NCBI GenBank assembly: GCA_020629635.1
Contig: JAHDCX010000012.1
Location: 71,623 to 135,622 of the forward strand
Length of the DNA: 64,000 bases
Direction: 5' to 3'
From: Acidimicrobiales bacterium
GTDB lineage: Bacteria > Actinomycetota > Acidimicrobiia > Acidimicrobiales > SHLQ01
In this document: positions 34,181-46,908 of the stretch, piece after piece
How positions within the stretch are numbered: the stretch's first letter is position 1
How the letters are laid out: each line of letters starts with the position of its first letter
Program-made: the position numbers and the translations under genes
The notes under the pieces: model-generated
The model's input: the letters and a program-made list of their open reading frames with translations, nothing else
Databases searched by the model: none
What the model was told of the DNA's origin: nothing

Positions 34181-34346
34181 CCGGCAATCTGCGCATGAGC
34201 GCCCAAAGGGCGCGAACTCGCAGCGAGAAGCTGTTGCATGCGAGTTCGCATAGCGAACTCGGTAAGGGTTTGGCCCGAAGGGCCAAACCGACAGCCTGCA
34301 GCGAGAAACAGCGTTCCGTTGAACGTGCTTCGCACGTTCAACGGAA
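34181..34346. repeat. cluster of four triloop hairpins, including dispersed repeat copy 2
   Basis: Copy 2 of the 47-bp repeat spans 34181-34227. Within 150 bp lie four perfect hairpins with 3-nt loops: 34199-34213 (6 bp, AAA), 34241-34261 (9 bp, ATA), 34267-34289 (10 bp, GAA) and 34314-34346 (15 bp, TTC). CAGCGAGAA recurs after the first and third. No gene is recognisable between 34088 and 34337. Confidence 0.7.
34314..34346 (-). terminator. hairpin at the 3' end of dnaE2
   Basis: A perfect 15-bp stem with a TTC loop. Its upstream arm includes the dnaE2 stop codon at 34338-34340. There is no T-run, as for other stems in this window. Confidence 0.55.
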
Positions 34347-37300
34347 GTCGCGACTCATGATGGGGACGGCCATCGAGAACTCGACGAGGCGGTCGGCGAC
34401 GACGTTGATCACGCCTTCGGCGATCTCGACGCGGCCGCGCACGATGAGCGCGATGGCGGTCATCGCCACGTGCTTGTGGCGCATCCAACATCCCTTCGAG
34501 ACGACGACGTTGATGAGGCCGAACTCGTCTTCGAGGTTGAGAAACGTCGTGCCCGACGCGGTCGCCGGGCGCTGACGGTGCGTCACCACTCCGGCCACGA
34601 GCACACGATCCCCCGAGGTCTGTTCCTTGAGCGCCGACGAGGCGAGAACCCCGAGACCGTCGAGGTCGCTGCGGTGGAACTGTGTTGGGTGCCCATCGGG
34701 GGCGACACCGGTGGCCCACAGGTTGGCGAGCGCGATCTCGCGGTCGCTCATGCCAGGCAGCATGGGCGCTTCGGTGCCGGTGATGATGCCCGGCAGTCGG
34801 GCATCAGACGCTTGCGCGGCCGCACCCGCCTCCCACAGCGCCCGCCGCCGAGCCTCGGCGGGTTTCTCCCCCGGCCGGGCGAACGAATCGAAGGCACCTG
34901 CGGTCGCCAACGCTTCGAGCACTTCGATCGAACATCCCGTCCGGCGCTTGACGTCTTCGATCGACGTCCACGGCCGCCCGGCGTCGAGGACATCGGCCAG
35001 GTCATCGCCGACATGACGGATCGAACCGATTCCGAGACGCACCGCTGGTCCGCCGTGGCCCCAGGTCTCGGGCGGCGATCCGGCGGGTTGCCGAAAGGCA
35101 GGATCCTCGGGCGGGGTCGGCCATTCGAGCGTGGCGCCCGCCCCCGATTGGTTGATGTCGGGCGTGCGCACCTCGACCCCATGGCGACGGGCGTCGCCGA
35201 CCAGGGTGTGTGGCGAATAGAACCCCATCGGCTGGGCGTTGAGCAGCGCCGCACAGAACGACGCCGGGAAGTACCGCTTGAGCCAGCACGACGCGTACAC
35301 GAGGTACGCGAACGACACCGAGTGGCTCTCCGGAAACCCGTAGTTGGCGAAGGCAGCAAGCTTCTCCCAGATCTGATCGGCGATGTCGCCCACGATCCCC
35401 CGTTCGGCCATGCCGTCGTAGAGCCGCGCCCGGATCTGTTCCATCCGAAGCCGGGACCGCTTGGATCCCATCGCCTGACGCAACTGATCAGCTTCGGCGG
35501 GCGTGAACCCGGCAACGTCGATCGCCATCTGCATCAACTGCTCCTGGAAGAGCGGGATTCCGAGCGTCTTCGACAACGACTTCTCGAGCAGCGGATGCAG
35601 ATAGGTGACCGGCTCCTTGCCGTTGCGACGACGAATGTAGGGGTGCACCGACCCGCCCTGGATCGGGCCGGGACGGATCAAGGCCACCTCGACGACCAGG
35701 TCGTAGAACATGCGGGGCTTGAGGCGGGGCAGGGTCGCCATCTGAGCTCGGGACTCGATCTGGAACACCCCGATCGTGTCCGCCCGACAGATCATGTCGT
35801 AGACCTCGGGATCCTGAGGCATGGTCGCCATGTCGACATCGAGCTCGTGGTGCTCGGCGATGAAGTCGATCGCATAGTGGATCGCCGAGAGCATCCCGAG
35901 GCCGAGCAGGTCGAACTTGACCAAACCCGTCGCGGCGCAGTCGTCCTTGTCCCACTGGAGCACGCTGCGGTTCTCCATGCGCGCCCACTCGACTGGGCAC
36001 ACCTCGACCACCGGCCGATCACAGATCACCATGCCCCCCGAATGGATCCCGAGGTGCCGGGGGGCGTGTTCGAGCTCGGACGCAAGCACGGCGACATCGT
36101 CGGGCAGCTGCTCGAGCTGCGAACCCAGGCTCGTCCAGCCGTCGAGTTTCTTGGAGAAGGCGTCCTGTTGGCCGGTGGCGTAGCCGAGCGCCTTGGCCAT
36201 GTCGCGCACCGCGGAGCGCGACCGGTACGTGATCACGTTGGCGACCTGCGCCGTGTGCTCACGCCCGTACCGCTCGTAGACGTATTGGATCACCTCTTCG
36301 CGCCGGCCCGACTCGATGTCGATGTCGATGTCGGGTGGGCCGTCACGTTCGGGCGACAGGAATCGTTCGAACAACAACCCGAGCGCCACGGCGTCGGCGT
36401 TGGTGATCCCGAGCGCATAACAGACCGCCGAATTCGCCGCCGACCCCCGCCCCTGGCAGTAGATGTCGGCCCGACGGCAGAAGTCGACGATGTCGTGGAC
36501 GATCAGGAAGTAGCCCGGGAATCCGAGCGAGGCGATCAGGTCGAGCTCGTGGTCGATCTGCGCCCACGCCCCCGACACCATCTCGTCGCTGCGATTGCCA
36601 TAGCGGCGTCGAGCGCCACGGGCCGTCAGCTCCCGCAGCCACGACATCTCGTCGTGCCCTTCCGGACACGGGTACGGCGGAAGATTGGGAGCGACCAACT
36701 GGAGATCGAACGCGCACTCGAGCCCGATCCGTTGCGCCGCCTCGACCACGCCCGGATATCGGGCGAAGCGTCGCGTCTGCTCGTCGCCGCTGCGCAGATG
36801 CGCCATCGACGCTGCGGGCAGCCAGCCGTCGTGCTCGTCGAGCGACCGCCGGTGCCCCACCGACGCCAGCGCCGTGGCCAGCTTGCGATGACCCTGGTGG
36901 GCGTAGCGCACATCGTTGGTGGCCACGACGGTGAGACCACGTTCGATCCCGAGTCGAGCGAGCGCGTCGTTGCGGGTCGTGCACAACGGCGTGGCGTGAT
37001 CCCACAGCTCGACCGCCACATTGACCGCCCCGAAACGGCTGACCAGGTCGTCGACCACTCCGCCAGCCGCCGACGGACCATGTCCCGCCAACGCTCGTGC
37101 GACCGGACCCCGATCGGTGCCCGTCAGCACCATCCACGACCCCTCGGCGAGTTCGGTCAACCGGTCGAGCGTGTAGGCCGGGGCACCCTTCTCCCCCGCC
37201 ATCTGCCCCTCGCTGATCGCCCGCGCCAAACGCGCATACCCCACGGGGCCACGAGCGATCACGACCAGATCACCTTCGGGAAGTGTCAGCTCGGTACCGA

Positions 37301-37736
37301 ACACCGTCGGCAGACCATGTGCCCGTGCCGCCTCTGCGAATCGGACGACCCCGTAGAACCCGTTGCGGTCGGTCAACGCCAACGCCGACAACCCGAGGCG
37401 GACCGCTTCCTCCGCCAGATCCTCCGGCCCCGATGCCCCGTCCAGAAAGCTGAAGTTGGAGTGGCAGTGCAACTCGGCGTAAGGAGCCACCGACGTCGGG
37501 CGCACCAACTCCGGCGGCTCGTACGCCTCACGATGCCGCGACCACGCCGGACTGTCGCCCCCCGTGCGCAGCACCCCACTCGTCGGTTCCTCGGTCGATG
37601 CCCCACGTGGCCCCTCCCGCACCGCCGGCCCATCGCTCACCCACTCATCGGCACTCGGCGAATCCGGGCGCGTCCCGCGATCCGACATTCGCCGTTCCAA
37701 CTCCGACCACGGCACCGGCGGATTACGCCAACCCAT
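34338..37736 (-). CDS. dnaE2: error-prone DNA polymerase III alpha subunit DnaE2
   Basis: About 1132 residues. The short N-terminal GWRNPPVPWSELERRM motif is typical of DnaE2. It is followed by a PHP domain (ELHCHSNFSFLDGAS), the polymerase core with GRGSAANSAVCYALG and the catalytic PDIDID, a helix-hairpin-helix region and a C-terminal OB fold. It lacks the long tau-binding tail of replicative DnaE1. DnaE2 does translesion synthesis with ImuA' and ImuB as an SOS mutasome; both partners are 6 kb away. I use the ATG at 37736 (a GTG at 37754 is also in frame). An SOS box lies 146 bp upstream. Confidence 0.95.
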   Translation of the reverse strand: MGWRNPPVPWSELERRMSDRGTRPDSPSADEWVSDGPAVREGPRGASTEEPTSGVLRTGGDSPAWSRHREAYEPPELVRPTSVAPYAELHCHSNFSFLDGASGPEDLAEEAVRLGLSALALTDRNGFYGVVRFAEAARAHGLPTVFGTELTLPEGDLVVIARGPVGYARLARAISEGQMAGEKGAPAYTLDRLTELAEGSWMVLTGTDRGPVARALAGHGPSAAGGVVDDLVSRFGAVNVAVELWDHATPLCTTRNDALARLGIERGLTVVATNDVRYAHQGHRKLATALASVGHRRSLDEHDGWLPAASMAHLRSGDEQTRRFARYPGVVEAAQRIGLECAFDLQLVAPNLPPYPCPEGHDEMSWLRELTARGARRRYGNRSDEMVSGAWAQIDHELDLIASLGFPGYFLIVHDIVDFCRRADIYCQGRGSAANSAVCYALGITNADAVALGLLFERFLSPERDGPPDIDIDIESGRREEVIQYVYERYGREHTAQVANVITYRSRSAVRDMAKALGYATGQQDAFSKKLDGWTSLGSQLEQLPDDVAVLASELEHAPRHLGIHSGGMVICDRPVVEVCPVEWARMENRSVLQWDKDDCAATGLVKFDLLGLGMLSAIHYAIDFIAEHHELDVDMATMPQDPEVYDMICRADTIGVFQIESRAQMATLPRLKPRMFYDLVVEVALIRPGPIQGGSVHPYIRRRNGKEPVTYLHPLLEKSLSKTLGIPLFQEQLMQMAIDVAGFTPAEADQLRQAMGSKRSRLRMEQIRARLYDGMAERGIVGDIADQIWEKLAAFANYGFPESHSVSFAYLVYASCWLKRYFPASFCAALLNAQPMGFYSPHTLVGDARRHGVEVRTPDINQSGAGATLEWPTPPEDPAFRQPAGSPPETWGHGGPAVRLGIGSIRHVGDDLADVLDAGRPWTSIEDVKRRTGCSIEVLEALATAGAFDSFARPGEKPAEARRRALWEAGAAAQASDARLPGIITGTEAPMLPGMSDREIALANLWATGVAPDGHPTQFHRSDLDGLGVLASSALKEQTSGDRVLVAGVVTHRQRPATASGTTFLNLEDEFGLINVVVSKGCWMRHKHVAMTAIALIVRGRVEIAEGVINVVADRLVEFSMAVPIMSRDFR

Positions 37737-37738
37737 CT

Positions 37739-37828
37739 GCTTTCGCAATCGCACGTTCGCTTCGCTCGGCGTGCTCTGCTGATCGCTTTCGCAATCGCAC
37801 GTTCGCTTCGCTCGGCGTGCTCTGCTGA
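37739..37828. repeat. 44-bp direct duplication upstream of dnaE2
   Basis: 37739-37782 and 37785-37828 are identical, so the period is 46 bp. Each copy contains an imperfect hairpin around GCTTCGC that resembles the dispersed hairpin family. The duplication fills most of the dnaE2 leader between the SOS box and the start. Confidence 0.85.
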
Positions 37829-37875: not shown

Positions 37876-37897
37876 AGCGTATCGAACACTTGTTCGC
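37876..37897 (-). promoter_or_regulatory. LexA (SOS) box and -10 of dnaE2
   Basis: TCGAAC-ACTT-GTTCGC at 37882-37897 fits the mycobacterial-type LexA box TCGAAC-N4-GTTCGA with one mismatch. On the minus strand it is followed directly by TACGCT (37881-37876), a possible -10. GTTCGATAC is shared with the imuA' box. Confidence 0.7.
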
Positions 37898-42316: not shown

Positions 42317-43894
42317 TCAATAGGTCCCAGCCAGCCACCAACGACCAGCCTCAAGATGCACCAGGACGGCACGACCATCGTCGAGTACGAGCTGGAAACG
42401 GGCGCGTCGACGGGCGCGAACCGGATCCCACCAGCGTTCGTCGACCGGCCACGGCCCCGCCCATGCGACCACTCGCCCCCGGTCGCGCGACGAGGCAACG
42501 AACCATTCGGGCTCGCCCGACAACTCCCCCCGGCCCGACACGCTCACCACCACCCCATGGACGTCGGTAACCTCGATCGGTCGCTCCTCGAACAACCGCG
42601 CCGGGGAAGGCGCCGGCAACGCGCCAGGCCATGGCCGTTCGTCCACCGCGCTCAGCGATCGACCCGCCAACTCGACCGTCCCCGCCGGGAGAAGCCGTAT
42701 CGCATCGGCGGCCTCACGGCCGCCTCGCCATTCGGCCACCTGCACGTTCTCCACACCGACCAGCGCCTCGAGACGGGCGACCGCACGTCCCGCTCGGAGG
42801 TCGGCCTCAGTCTCCCCACCCCAGAAGCCGAGTTGTCGACCAGCCGCTGGAATGCACTCATCGGGACGCAACACGAGCCGGGTCAGCCCGCCGCTCGGCC
42901 GGACCGCCGGACCGGCCTGAAGCCACCCATCGAGCTGCCACCGGACCCGATCGGTCAGCGCAGCAACCGACAAGGCACCTTCGTGACGCCACCCCCGAGC
43001 GAAGGTCTCCCCATGCTCACTCTCGGCTTCGATCGTGACGCGCGTACACGCTGCCCCTCGTTGCGCGAGTCGATCATGCAACGCGATCGCCAGCGACCGG
43101 GCAGCGAACGCCGCCTGATCGATCCGTTCGATCGGTGGCTCGAGCTCGATCGACTGGGCCATGTCCTCGGGGGGATCGGTCGCGTCCGGGAGACGTTCGT
43201 CCTCACCTCGGGCCCGGGCATGCGCCACCAAACCCGCTCGGCCGAACCGACCGAGCACGTCGGACCGCTCAAAGCCCGCAAACGCTCCGAGCGTCCGGAC
43301 GCCAAGACGCCAGAGCACATCGGTCAGTCCCGGGTCGTCGAGAAGTGTGATCGACAACGGCGCGAGGAAGTCTGGGCCCTCCCCAGAGGGCACGATCATC
43401 GGCGATGCCGATCGCACCCGAGCTGCGAGACGGGCCGTGAAGACCCCATCGGCGATCCCGACCGAGCACGTCGTCCGCCCCTCGAGTGCGTCCTCGACGA
43501 CCTCGGAGATCTTCGCGGCGAGAGACTCGTCGCCTCCGAAATATCGTGAGGGTCCACGAGTCGCGAACAGACACGTCCCGGGCTGCACGATGTCGAGCCG
43601 AGGCGTCAGCTGCTCCAACGCGCCGGCGACCGCCTCGAACGAACGTGCTTCGGCGGCGAGATCGCGTTCGGCGATCGTGAGCTCGGGACAGCGGCCCTGC
43701 GCTTCACGACGCCGCAACCCACGTACCACCCCTGCCCGACGGGCGGCCTCCGAGGAGGCGACCACCCGGTTGGCGTGCAGGACCGCTCCTGCGTCGTCGG
43801 GAGCGATTCCGGCCGCCACCACCGGCCAATCCGCACACCACAGGAGCGCGACTCGCTGTGGCTTTCGCCGCAGATCCTCAGATTCTTCGGCCAT
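42317..43894 (-). CDS. imuB: ImuB, catalytically inactive Y-family polymerase
   Basis: A 525-residue mutasome hub protein. The N-terminus RVALLWCADWPVVAAG takes the place of the DMDAFF catalytic start of active Y-family polymerases, so the metal Asp is missing, as known for ImuB. The Y-family palm and finger layout continues to about residue 340. QLGFWG at 354-359 fits the beta-clamp-binding motif (QLPLWG in mycobacteria). The C-terminal region is the part known to bind ImuA' and DnaE2. It overlaps the imuA' end by 17 nt. Confidence 0.93.
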   Translation of the reverse strand: MAEESEDLRRKPQRVALLWCADWPVVAAGIAPDDAGAVLHANRVVASSEAARRAGVVRGLRRREAQGRCPELTIAERDLAAEARSFEAVAGALEQLTPRLDIVQPGTCLFATRGPSRYFGGDESLAAKISEVVEDALEGRTTCSVGIADGVFTARLAARVRSASPMIVPSGEGPDFLAPLSITLLDDPGLTDVLWRLGVRTLGAFAGFERSDVLGRFGRAGLVAHARARGEDERLPDATDPPEDMAQSIELEPPIERIDQAAFAARSLAIALHDRLAQRGAACTRVTIEAESEHGETFARGWRHEGALSVAALTDRVRWQLDGWLQAGPAVRPSGGLTRLVLRPDECIPAAGRQLGFWGGETEADLRAGRAVARLEALVGVENVQVAEWRGGREAADAIRLLPAGTVELAGRSLSAVDERPWPGALPAPSPARLFEERPIEVTDVHGVVVSVSGRGELSGEPEWFVASSRDRGRVVAWAGPWPVDERWWDPVRARRRARFQLVLDDGRAVLVHLEAGRWWLAGTY

Positions 43895-44585
43895 CGATCA
43901 GCGTCAGGCGAGGAGTGGGCGTGGATGCATCGAGACGGCGCACCGCTCCGTCCTCGCCAGGAAGCGCAAGGGTGGATCGCCGCTCACGCCCTGCCCCGCG
44001 ACGCCCACCGCCGACCACGTCCACCACTCGCGACCGCAGTACCCCATGGCCCCGTCCGACCCCCTCCCATCGGACCGTGTCGCTGCGAAACGTCAGATCC
44101 GCAGACAACTGCAGCCGATCCGAGTGACCGGGGACCTCGACCAGGACCGTGCCCCGTTCTCGGGCACGCGATGCCAGCCGACGCTGTTCCGACGGAGACA
44201 CTCGACGTCGCGGCGAACCAATCATGACCACGTCGACCGCCCCGACCAACGCGCCGACGACCGCGCTCCATTCGTCACGCGACCCTGTGGTGTCCACCAC
44301 CAGCACGCGCTCGACCGCGACACCGACCTCGTGCGCCGCCATCAGCCCTACCCCGTCGATGTCGACGGCCGCAATCCATCCCCCAGTTGCCGTGACTGCC
44401 CCGAGAAGGGCCCAGGCGAGCACACGCGCGGTCGGCCCACCCGACACTCCGATCGTCGACCCTCGTTGCAACCCTCCACCCGGGAGCAACGAAACGAACG
44501 CCTCGGGGACGGGGAGCACCTGCTCCCCGGCGAGGACGACTGGCGCGACGCGTCCGATTTCCTCACGAAGTTCCGCATGAACCAT
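43878..44585 (-). CDS. imuA: ImuA', RecA-like mutasome accessory protein
   Basis: A 235-residue protein similar in layout to a RecA/SulA-type core with a weak P-loop region (STIGVSGGPTARVLAWALLG). The classical Lys of Walker A is absent, as expected for ImuA'. It is the first gene of imuA'-imuB. The ATG at 44585 lies 6 nt after a GATACT -10 box embedded in a LexA palindrome; a TTG at 44603 would lie inside that site. Together with DnaE2 this pair carries out damage-induced mutagenesis in Actinobacteria. Confidence 0.85.
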   Translation of the reverse strand: MVHAELREEIGRVAPVVLAGEQVLPVPEAFVSLLPGGGLQRGSTIGVSGGPTARVLAWALLGAVTATGGWIAAVDIDGVGLMAAHEVGVAVERVLVVDTTGSRDEWSAVVGALVGAVDVVMIGSPRRRVSPSEQRRLASRARERGTVLVEVPGHSDRLQLSADLTFRSDTVRWEGVGRGHGVLRSRVVDVVGGGRRGAGRERRSTLALPGEDGAVRRLDASTPTPRLTLIDGRRI

Positions 44586-44589
44586 CTCA

Positions 44590-44617
44590 CCAGTATCGAA
44601 CAATTGTTCGATACTGG
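44590..44617. promoter_or_regulatory. LexA (SOS) box of imuA'-imuB, 28-bp perfect palindrome
   Basis: The core TCGAAC-AATT-GTTCGA (44596-44611) equals the mycobacterial LexA consensus exactly. The symmetry extends to 28 bp. Confidence 0.88.
44592..44597 (-). promoter_or_regulatory. -10 box of imuA' (GATACT) inside the LexA box
   Basis: Minus-strand GATACT with a 6-nt spacer to the ATG at 44585. LexA bound here would block RNA polymerase directly. Confidence 0.55.
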
Positions 44618-44717
44618 CAAACCATCAGGATTCTCCCAGTTGACGAGGGACCATAGATGCTGTTTCAATGCTTTTCATGATTCATCAAAGCTTCCCCGAG
44701 CTCCCGGACTTCTTTCG

Positions 44718-45140
44718 ATGACCACCGACTTCGAGCGCAGAGAACTCGAGCGCCAGCTCTCCACTGCACACTGGCGCCGCAACACTGCGCTGGCCGACGC
44801 GTCCCGCCTCGAAGATCGGGTCGCCGAGCTCCGCCGTGTCGCCTCTCGAATCGACTGGGCCGCCCAACCGCTCAGCTCCGTCCTCACCGCCGTCGGCGCC
44901 CTCCACACGCTCGACACGTGGGAGGGCAATGCTGCGGTCCAGAGCCGGCGTCGACTTCGAGAGTCGGAGGACCGCACCGACACCGCCCGAAGCCGAATCG
45001 ACGGCTTGGTCGAGGACCTCCGAACTGAGGCCAACGCCGAATCCACTCGACTCGCGACCGCAGAGTCGGTCGCGGCAGCAGAACTCCGACGAATTTGGTC
45101 GATCGAGATCGAACTGGAACGAGACGACGTCCTGATCTGA
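44718..45140 (+). CDS. coiled-coil protein of unknown function (140 aa)
   Basis: A 140-residue highly charged helical protein with heptad-like stretches at both ends (RRELERQLSTAHWRRNTAL and LVEDLRTEANAESTRLATAE). No membrane segment, Cys or known motif. It starts 100 bp from the divergent LexA box. Nothing suggests SOS control on this strand, but the site lies between both genes. The start has no clear ribosome site. It is followed 55 bp later by the transglycosylase gene. Confidence 0.65.
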   Translation: MTTDFERRELERQLSTAHWRRNTALADASRLEDRVAELRRVASRIDWAAQPLSSVLTAVGALHTLDTWEGNAAVQSRRRLRESEDRTDTARSRIDGLVEDLRTEANAESTRLATAESVAAAELRRIWSIEIELERDDVLI

Positions 45141-45163
45141 ACCGTGGGTAGAACTTCCTGCTC

Positions 45164-45241
45164 AAGGAGTACGAAAAGGTGCCGAACGGTCAGCGATGGT
45201 GTCGTTTCGGTCTGCGTACTCGCGCGTCCTTGTCGTTGTGA
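45164..45241 (+). promoter_or_regulatory. Shine-Dalgarno sequence with a 20-codon upstream ORF
   Basis: AAGGAG at 45164-45169 is correctly placed for a GTG at 45179 that opens a 20-codon frame ending with TGA at 45239-45241. The real gene starts inside it at 45196 in another frame. Translation of the small frame could affect the main start. Confidence 0.35.
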
Positions 45242-46908
45242 CAGTCGTCGGCTCACTCGTCGCCGCCACCCCGGAGATCGCTGGTGCCGAAGACACCGAC
45301 GACGCGTCTTTCGGGGACGTTCATGGACAGACCTACGACACCGATCCGAGCGACGATCCGTGGGTGGATCCGGTTGTCCTCTTCGACCTCGACCCCGCCG
45401 CTCTCGAGGCGACACCGGTCCCCGACCTCGACGAGCTCGCCCTCCTGCGATCGGACGTGCTTGCCGATGACGTCGTTCGCATCGCCGTCGAGGACGACCC
45501 GCTCCCTGAAGCCGTCGAGCGGCACCGTTCGGCGCTGCATGCTGCGGCGGTACTCCGAGTCGAGGTCGCTGCTCTCAGCGACGAGATCCGGGATCGACTT
45601 CCCGACCTTGCCCGACTCGCCGACGAGATCGAGACGCACCGCAACACCGAGGCGCGGCTACTGGACGAGAACGCATTGCTTCGAAACGCCATCACCGAGT
45701 TCGCGATCCAGACGTTCATTGGCGGCGAAGCCGAATCGACGATGGGCCTCGATCTCACCGAGAACGCCTCGACCGACGCCCTCCGCATCCTCGACAAAGA
45801 GGTCCGCGACGAGCACCTCGCTCGCATCGAAGAAAACGAAGACCAACACGCACGAACCGTCCGCCAGCGAATCTCCACGGAAAGCGATCTCGCCGAACGT
45901 CGAGAAGCCATCGACGCGCTCCGCGCCGAGCGGCTGAACCGCTGGGCCGACATTCGCGCCGCCGACGACCTGGTCGCCCAAACTCGAGCGGATCATCAGC
46001 GGGTACTGCACAGCCGCCTCGACGCATTCGTCGTCGGAAGCGACATTCCGCTCGTCGCCCTGAACGCCTACGTGATCGCCGAACGAGTCCTCGCTGACGA
46101 ACGGCCAGACTGCGGCGTTGAATGGTGGATGCTCGCCGGAATCGGGCGCATCGAGAGCCTGCACGGACACTTCGCCGAATCGACCCTCGACATCCACGGC
46201 ACCACGACAGATCCAATCTTCGGACCAGCGCTCGACGGCCGGATTCTCTCGGGTGGCGACGAGCTCCCCGACGGGGTCGACGCTCCAGACCCGACCGGGC
46301 GGAGCGAGGATCAAACGGTCACCGTTCCTGCCGAGTCCGCCCCGCCCGCCGCCGTGGCGTCGGTGGACGAATCGACCGGTGAGCAGACGGCAGGGTCAGA
46401 CGAAGCAGCTCCTGGCGACGCGGAGACCGGCGAAGCCGTCGCTGAAGTCGTCGTTCGGCGCCTGGCGCTGATCCTCGATACCGACGGGGGCGAACTCGAC
46501 GCGGACACGGTGTACGACCGTGCCGTCGGGCCGATGCAGTTCATTCCCCAGACGTGGCGCGGCTGGGCGACCGACACCGACCGAGATGGCGACGCCAACC
46601 CGCAGAACATCTACGACGCGACCGTCGCCGCGGGTCGATACCTCTGCGCCGCGTCGTCGTTGGGCTCCGCGGACGGCCAGGAACGGGCCTTCTTCGCGTA
46701 CAACCACGACGATGAATACACCCGTCTCGTCTCGACGGCGGCCACCGTCTACCAATCCCAGATCGTCCTCACCGATCGCGACGACGCAGAAGAACAGCCG
46801 ACCAAGACACGACACCTTGGGATCGCCGAGGACCCGGAGGATGATGTGCCCGACCTCCAGCTCGACGCCTTGTCCGAATGGCTCGGCAGCAACACGTTCG
46901 GGTCCTGA
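45196..46908 (+). CDS. secreted lytic transglycosylase-like protein with coiled-coil region
   Basis: A 570-residue exported protein. A signal peptide (VLVVVTVVGSLVAA, cut near IAGAE) leads to an acidic region and a long coiled-coil (about 95-265). The catalytic domain of the SLT_2/MltB type is split: WWMLAGIGRIESLHG supplies the catalytic Glu and AVGPMQFIPQTWRGWATD comes about 130 residues later, separated by an acidic low-complexity insert. DGDANPQNIYDATVAAGRYLC completes the domain. It likely cleaves peptidoglycan; the coiled-coil resembles RipA/EnvC-type regulators. The ATG at 45196 has no close ribosome site. Confidence 0.85.
   Translation: MVSFRSAYSRVLVVVTVVGSLVAATPEIAGAEDTDDASFGDVHGQTYDTDPSDDPWVDPVVLFDLDPAALEATPVPDLDELALLRSDVLADDVVRIAVEDDPLPEAVERHRSALHAAAVLRVEVAALSDEIRDRLPDLARLADEIETHRNTEARLLDENALLRNAITEFAIQTFIGGEAESTMGLDLTENASTDALRILDKEVRDEHLARIEENEDQHARTVRQRISTESDLAERREAIDALRAERLNRWADIRAADDLVAQTRADHQRVLHSRLDAFVVGSDIPLVALNAYVIAERVLADERPDCGVEWWMLAGIGRIESLHGHFAESTLDIHGTTTDPIFGPALDGRILSGGDELPDGVDAPDPTGRSEDQTVTVPAESAPPAAVASVDESTGEQTAGSDEAAPGDAETGEAVAEVVVRRLALILDTDGGELDADTVYDRAVGPMQFIPQTWRGWATDTDRDGDANPQNIYDATVAAGRYLCAASSLGSADGQERAFFAYNHDDEYTRLVSTAATVYQSQIVLTDRDDAEEQPTKTRHLGIAEDPEDDVPDLQLDALSEWLGSNTFGS

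Follow-up and report, generated by a model that had tools for sequence, protein, structure and literature searches.

The window analysed here, a 64,000-nt stretch of genomic DNA from an Acidimicrobiales bacterium, encodes the components of the ImuA'-ImuB-DnaE2 mutasome and carries a long palindrome built around an SOS box immediately upstream of imuA'. The relevant features are as follows.

34338-37754, minus strand: dnaE2 (1138 aa), error-prone DNA polymerase (NCBIfam NF004225, 1419 bits, cut-off 939; PF07733)
37882-37897, minus strand: SOS-like box of dnaE2, GCGAACAAGTGTTCGA, with one mismatch, followed by TACGCT
42317-43894, minus strand: imuB (525 aa), Y-family IMS domain (Pfam PF00817, 58.7 bits)
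43878-44585, minus strand: imuA' (235 aa; NCBIfam NF058630 ImuA', 112.3 bits, cut-off 65)
44590-44617, no strand: perfect 28-bp palindrome CCAGTATCGAACAATTGTTCGATACTGG, the longest even palindrome in the window
44592-44597, minus strand: -10 hexamer GATACT, conserved in relatives and followed after 6 nt by the imuA' ATG
44596-44611, no strand: exact actinobacterial SOS (LexA) box TCGAACAATTGTTCGA, TCGAAC-N4-GTTCGA
44610-44615, plus strand: mirrored GATACT in the outer palindrome arm, with no leaderless start codon behind it
44615-44620, minus strand: -35 hexamer TTGCCA, separated from GATACT by a 17-bp spacer
44718-45140, plus strand: small protein gene (140 aa) beside imuA'

All three members of the mutasome are thus present, with imuB adjoining imuA' and overlapping its end by 17 nt, and the LexA repressor is encoded elsewhere in the genome (TIGR00498, 227.4 bits, over the cut-off). 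The mutasome forms two separate SOS units, the dnaE2 start lying about 6.8 kb from that of imuA' with an ABC transporter gene and others in between. Downstream of its SOS-like box, dnaE2 has an approximately 110-nt leader; leaderlessness is therefore not a general property of the cassette in this genome. Among relatives, five loci (L179, L186, L188, L190 and L191) have dnaE2 itself in a leaderless SOS layout, GATACT-N8-9-start.

On the minus strand, the elements upstream of imuA' are arranged in the order TTGCCA-GTATCGAACAATTGTTC-GATACT-GGTGAG-ATG, with the ATG at 44585-44583. A preliminary description of this DNA had reported a perfect 28-bp palindrome containing TCGAAC-N4-GTTCGA, which we recovered at 44590-44617 with the core at 44596-44611; the bordering bases, A (44589) and C (44618), are unpaired, and the palindrome is therefore exactly 28 bp long. 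The position 44585 given there as the beginning of the site is in fact the A of the imuA' ATG, and the gap between palindrome and start codon, described as 5 nt, measures 4 nt (44589-44586). The core box ends 10 nt before the ATG and is the single exact match to TCGAAC-N4-GTTCGA in the whole window. It was also proposed that the box covers the -10 element. This holds for the palindrome, whose outer arm contains the entire hexamer, but not for the core box, which fills the spacer between -35 and -10 and overlaps only the first two nucleotides (GA) of GATACT; the whole -10 is contained only in the outer arm, beyond the core. The reported 6-nt distance from GATACT (44597-44592) to the ATG was confirmed (GGTGAG). 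The -35 hexamer TTGCCA (44620-44615) had been overlooked. Together, TTGCCA and GATACT form the only sigma-70-like promoter in the region 44300-45300, where shuffled sequences gave an expectation of 0.0.

This geometry has the features of a leaderless promoter, which typically has its -10 about 6-7 nt before the start codon: the spacing here is GATACT-N6-ATG, and there is no room between the -10 and the ATG for a Shine-Dalgarno sequence at the usual spacing. A second in-frame start candidate, TTG at 44603, would give a longer protein; this codon precedes the -10 and does not coincide with the conserved start. As to the box itself, it is an exact 16-bp palindrome of the actinobacterial SOS type in the promoter of a damage gene, it is conserved at orthologous loci, and LexA is present in the genome. 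The genome probably contains many leaderless starts, since TAnnnT-N5-8 precedes one of the first six start codons in 11 of the 38 predicted genes of the window and was found at internal codons, taken as a control, in 3 of 38.

Of 59 related genomes, 52 have an imuA' homologue, and 80 imuA' loci were taken from named records, mostly metagenome-assembled genomes of Acidimicrobiales and Acidimicrobiia. The -35/box/-10/ATG layout recurs upstream of the relatives' genes. Among 70 promoters from across the order, part of which were collected with a pattern that itself demanded a start codon 3-9 nt away and TT near box-minus-9, the TTG of the -35 was present in all 70, with a spacer of 17 bp in 57 and 18 bp in 13. 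In the same set, with the same demand placed on part of it, the distance from TACT to the start codon was 6 nt in 46 promoters, 5 in 11, 7 in six, 8 in two, 9 in four and 3 in one, thus 5-9 nt in 69 of 70; the start codons were ATG (47) and GTG (23). The subset derived by tblastn, chosen with no requirement for a -35 or a start distance, has T at box-minus-9 in 48 of 48 cases. In eight further sites TAnnnT directly follows the box, i.e., the -10 has moved 2 nt downstream, and in five of these eight the start codon lies at 12 nt instead of 10. This joint shift indicates that the distance kept is that from -10 to start rather than from box to start; a leaderless mRNA requires just such a coupling of start codon to -10. 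Among 297 genomes of the order, 65 contain the exact string box-TACT-N3-9-RTG, and none contains the reversed control; outside the class it was found in only two genomes among 198 sampled across the phylum. The boxes of Micrococcales imuA' genes lack this layout and are placed otherwise, e.g., GATAA|TCGAAC in Demequina.

From the elements, spacing, conservation and gene identities, all observed directly, we infer that the locus is very probably a LexA-repressed, DNA-damage-inducible, leaderless promoter of the imuA'-imuB mutasome operon in an actinobacterium of the Acidimicrobiales type. The order-wide spacing and the co-shift of -10 and start codon strongly support, at the sequence level, a leaderless promoter occluded by LexA, and so uphold the earlier proposals of an SOS box in the imuA' promoter and of a leaderless imuA' start. 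The promoter is well supported as an ordinary SOS promoter with a tidy leaderless geometry. Occlusion of promoters by LexA, with release through RecA-stimulated cleavage, is established LexA biology. At this locus, a LexA dimer bound to the 16-bp box (44596-44611) would occupy the spacer between TTGCCA and GATACT, so that RNA polymerase would be unable to engage both hexamers; occlusion by the bound dimer is thus to be expected, despite an overlap with the -10 of just 2 nt. Upon DNA damage, RecA-stimulated self-cleavage of LexA would free the promoter, transcription would start at or beside the A of the imuA' ATG to give a leaderless mRNA, and imuB would be expressed downstream through its overlap with imuA'.

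The predicted regulation agrees with that of Mycobacterium tuberculosis, where imuA', imuB and dnaE2 are controlled by RecA/LexA and respond to mitomycin C in a RecA-dependent manner (PMC8151990). The two systems share the genes (ImuA' family NF058630), an SOS box ahead of them and the presumed RecA/LexA control, whereas in the present case the spacer between -35 and -10 is taken up by the box and the distance from -10 to ATG is fixed at 6 nt. The lexA gene of M. tuberculosis is leaderless, with coinciding translation and transcription starts (PMC2897130), and so resembles the imuA' case as an SOS gene, although it is a different gene and its start site was determined experimentally, while ours is predicted. 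In Streptomyces venezuelae, according to the available part of the source (PMC9380542), the 16-bp actinobacterial SOS box likewise occurs near the dnaE2, recA and lexA promoters; their positions vary between about -20 and -162 relative to the start codon, and that part describes no fixed leaderless layout. Our literature search found no paper mapping this box/-10/ATG geometry for imuA', and none on SOS promoters of Acidimicrobiia, as judged by titles and abstracts.

The complete GATACT on the plus strand, in the mirror arm, could make the site a bidirectional LexA promoter that drives a divergent SOS transcript, e.g., of 44718-45140, which would also explain the extended palindrome. A homologue of this plus-strand gene precedes imuA' in each of the ten loci examined from the genus, the window's own included, and is divergent from imuA' in nine of them (on the same strand in L024). 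We nevertheless consider such a promoter improbable, since the mirrored -10 was lost in six of these ten loci despite the retained neighbour, the plus-strand -35 is poor (TCACCA), and a reverse -35 is not enriched in the sites compared (G 36, C 24, T 17 and A 16 at position 9 of the right arm). With the mirrored -10 kept in only four of ten loci, SOS control of 44718-45140 via the mirror arm is unlikely, and conservation of a mirror promoter together with the neighbouring gene does not hold within the genus. A divergent leaderless gene sharing the operator was also considered and rejected: the start-like codons at most mirrored sites do not open a reading frame, and the few longer ones seen are unsupported. 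The product of 44718-45140 has no Pfam or NCBIfam match.

Between imuA' and the plus-strand neighbour, seven of the ten same-genus loci carry a direct-repeat motif resembling TGAAAnRYATTGAAACA, located 83-105 nt before the imuA' start (L016-L019, L022, L023 and L025). The motif has eight matches in total in the 102 kb of same-genus loci, none of them elsewhere in these loci, and is possibly an operator or a divergent promoter.

An imuA' gene that is not leaderless but transcribed from a promoter further upstream, with the palindrome serving as an operator or as an RNA hairpin in the 5' UTR, would fit the in-frame TTG at 44603 and the 14-bp hairpin that could form if the site were transcribed. 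It gives no reason for the fixed -35/-10/ATG spacing of the 70 promoters or for the fact that -10 and start codon move together, and the left arm is missing in about half of the sites; we regard it as very improbable. Chance origin of the palindrome in a TCGA-rich genome is practically negligible: degenerate boxes are indeed frequent (121 sites with up to three mismatches in the window versus 59 expected), but 28 bp is far beyond the simulated lengths, with no palindrome longer than 24 bp in 20 simulated windows (1.28 Mb, second-order Markov model), and the orthologous position and order-wide conservation refute it. The next-longest even palindrome in the window has 18 bp. Genome-wide, there are ten exact SOS cores and, allowing at most one mismatch, 108 SOS-type sites versus 10 for the reversed control pattern.

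The promoter does not need the bases outside the box on both sides, the right-hand TACT being part of the -10 and the left-hand AGTA lying mostly in the spacer. We compared 95 distinct sites, mostly of imuA' with some of dnaE2 (at least L174 is counted in both orientations). The palindrome outside the SOS box is all-or-nothing across species: 43 sites extend the perfect match by 0-1 bp past the box, 12 by 2-5 bp and 40 by 6 bp or more. Where AGTA/TACT is matched (46 sites), position 5 pairs in 44 sites and position 6 in 41, against 33.5 and 34.2, respectively, expected with shuffled partners (p 0.0002 for each), where the p-values ignore relatedness and are indicative; the coupling at these two positions is absent from sites with no AGTA/TACT match. 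At position 5 all four complementary pairs were seen (C-G, A-T, G-C and T-A). In the ImuA' tree, the sisters L067 (ACAGTA/TACTGT) and L071 (GCAGTA/TACTGC) have position 6 changed on both sides, and a further sister pair consists of L050, from the genus of the window (CAAGTA/TACTTG), and L016 (CCAGTA/TACTGG). The extended state requires at least 17 changes on this tree and is therefore not one inherited block.

LexA reading its operator half-site by half-site does not predict covariation with changing bases, whereas arm-to-arm template switching does. We tentatively propose, at somewhat less than even confidence, that the outer arms have been homogenised repeatedly by template switching, with no base-by-base reading by LexA. 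The spacer-side arm would receive the -10 arm (TACT and its neighbours) as one block, later changes would be copied across, and the operator of a mutagenesis cassette would thereby evolve as a hotspot of templated mutation. A weaker alternative is that selection favours a hairpin or cruciform in the operator DNA. Template switching during replication has been reported to give rise to RNA hairpins and to preserve them (PMC8794818), and quasipalindrome mutations are described in E. coli (PMC7202029). The arms discussed here share with these cases the multi-base changes coupled from arm to arm, and differ from the RNA hairpins or reporter sites studied there in belonging to a repressor operator inside a promoter. 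If this reading of the arm coupling is true, templated mutation in bacteria would have left a natural record in SOS operators: across many aligned promoters, function holds one arm constant while the other can be overwritten. An extreme case is L180 (G293:C24), where a 52-bp perfect palindrome, centred near locus position 1593, occupies the imuA' promoter: an inverted copy of the start codon and the bases after it (ATGCCCTC) lies upstream of the -35, so that the -35, the -10 and the first eight coding bases are all mirrored. This palindrome arose either by template switching or through misassembly.

Further SOS boxes were seen in genome G000 at six copies of a repeated gene start (L001, L002, L004, L007, L008 and L009), several of them at contig ends. 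The ORF of L008 (402 aa) has no Pfam or NCBIfam match and resembles the actinobacterial 13E12/DUF222 HNH repeat genes. At all six gene starts, an exact SOS box lies just downstream of a -10-like TACAAT or TATAAT (TACAA|TCGAAC).
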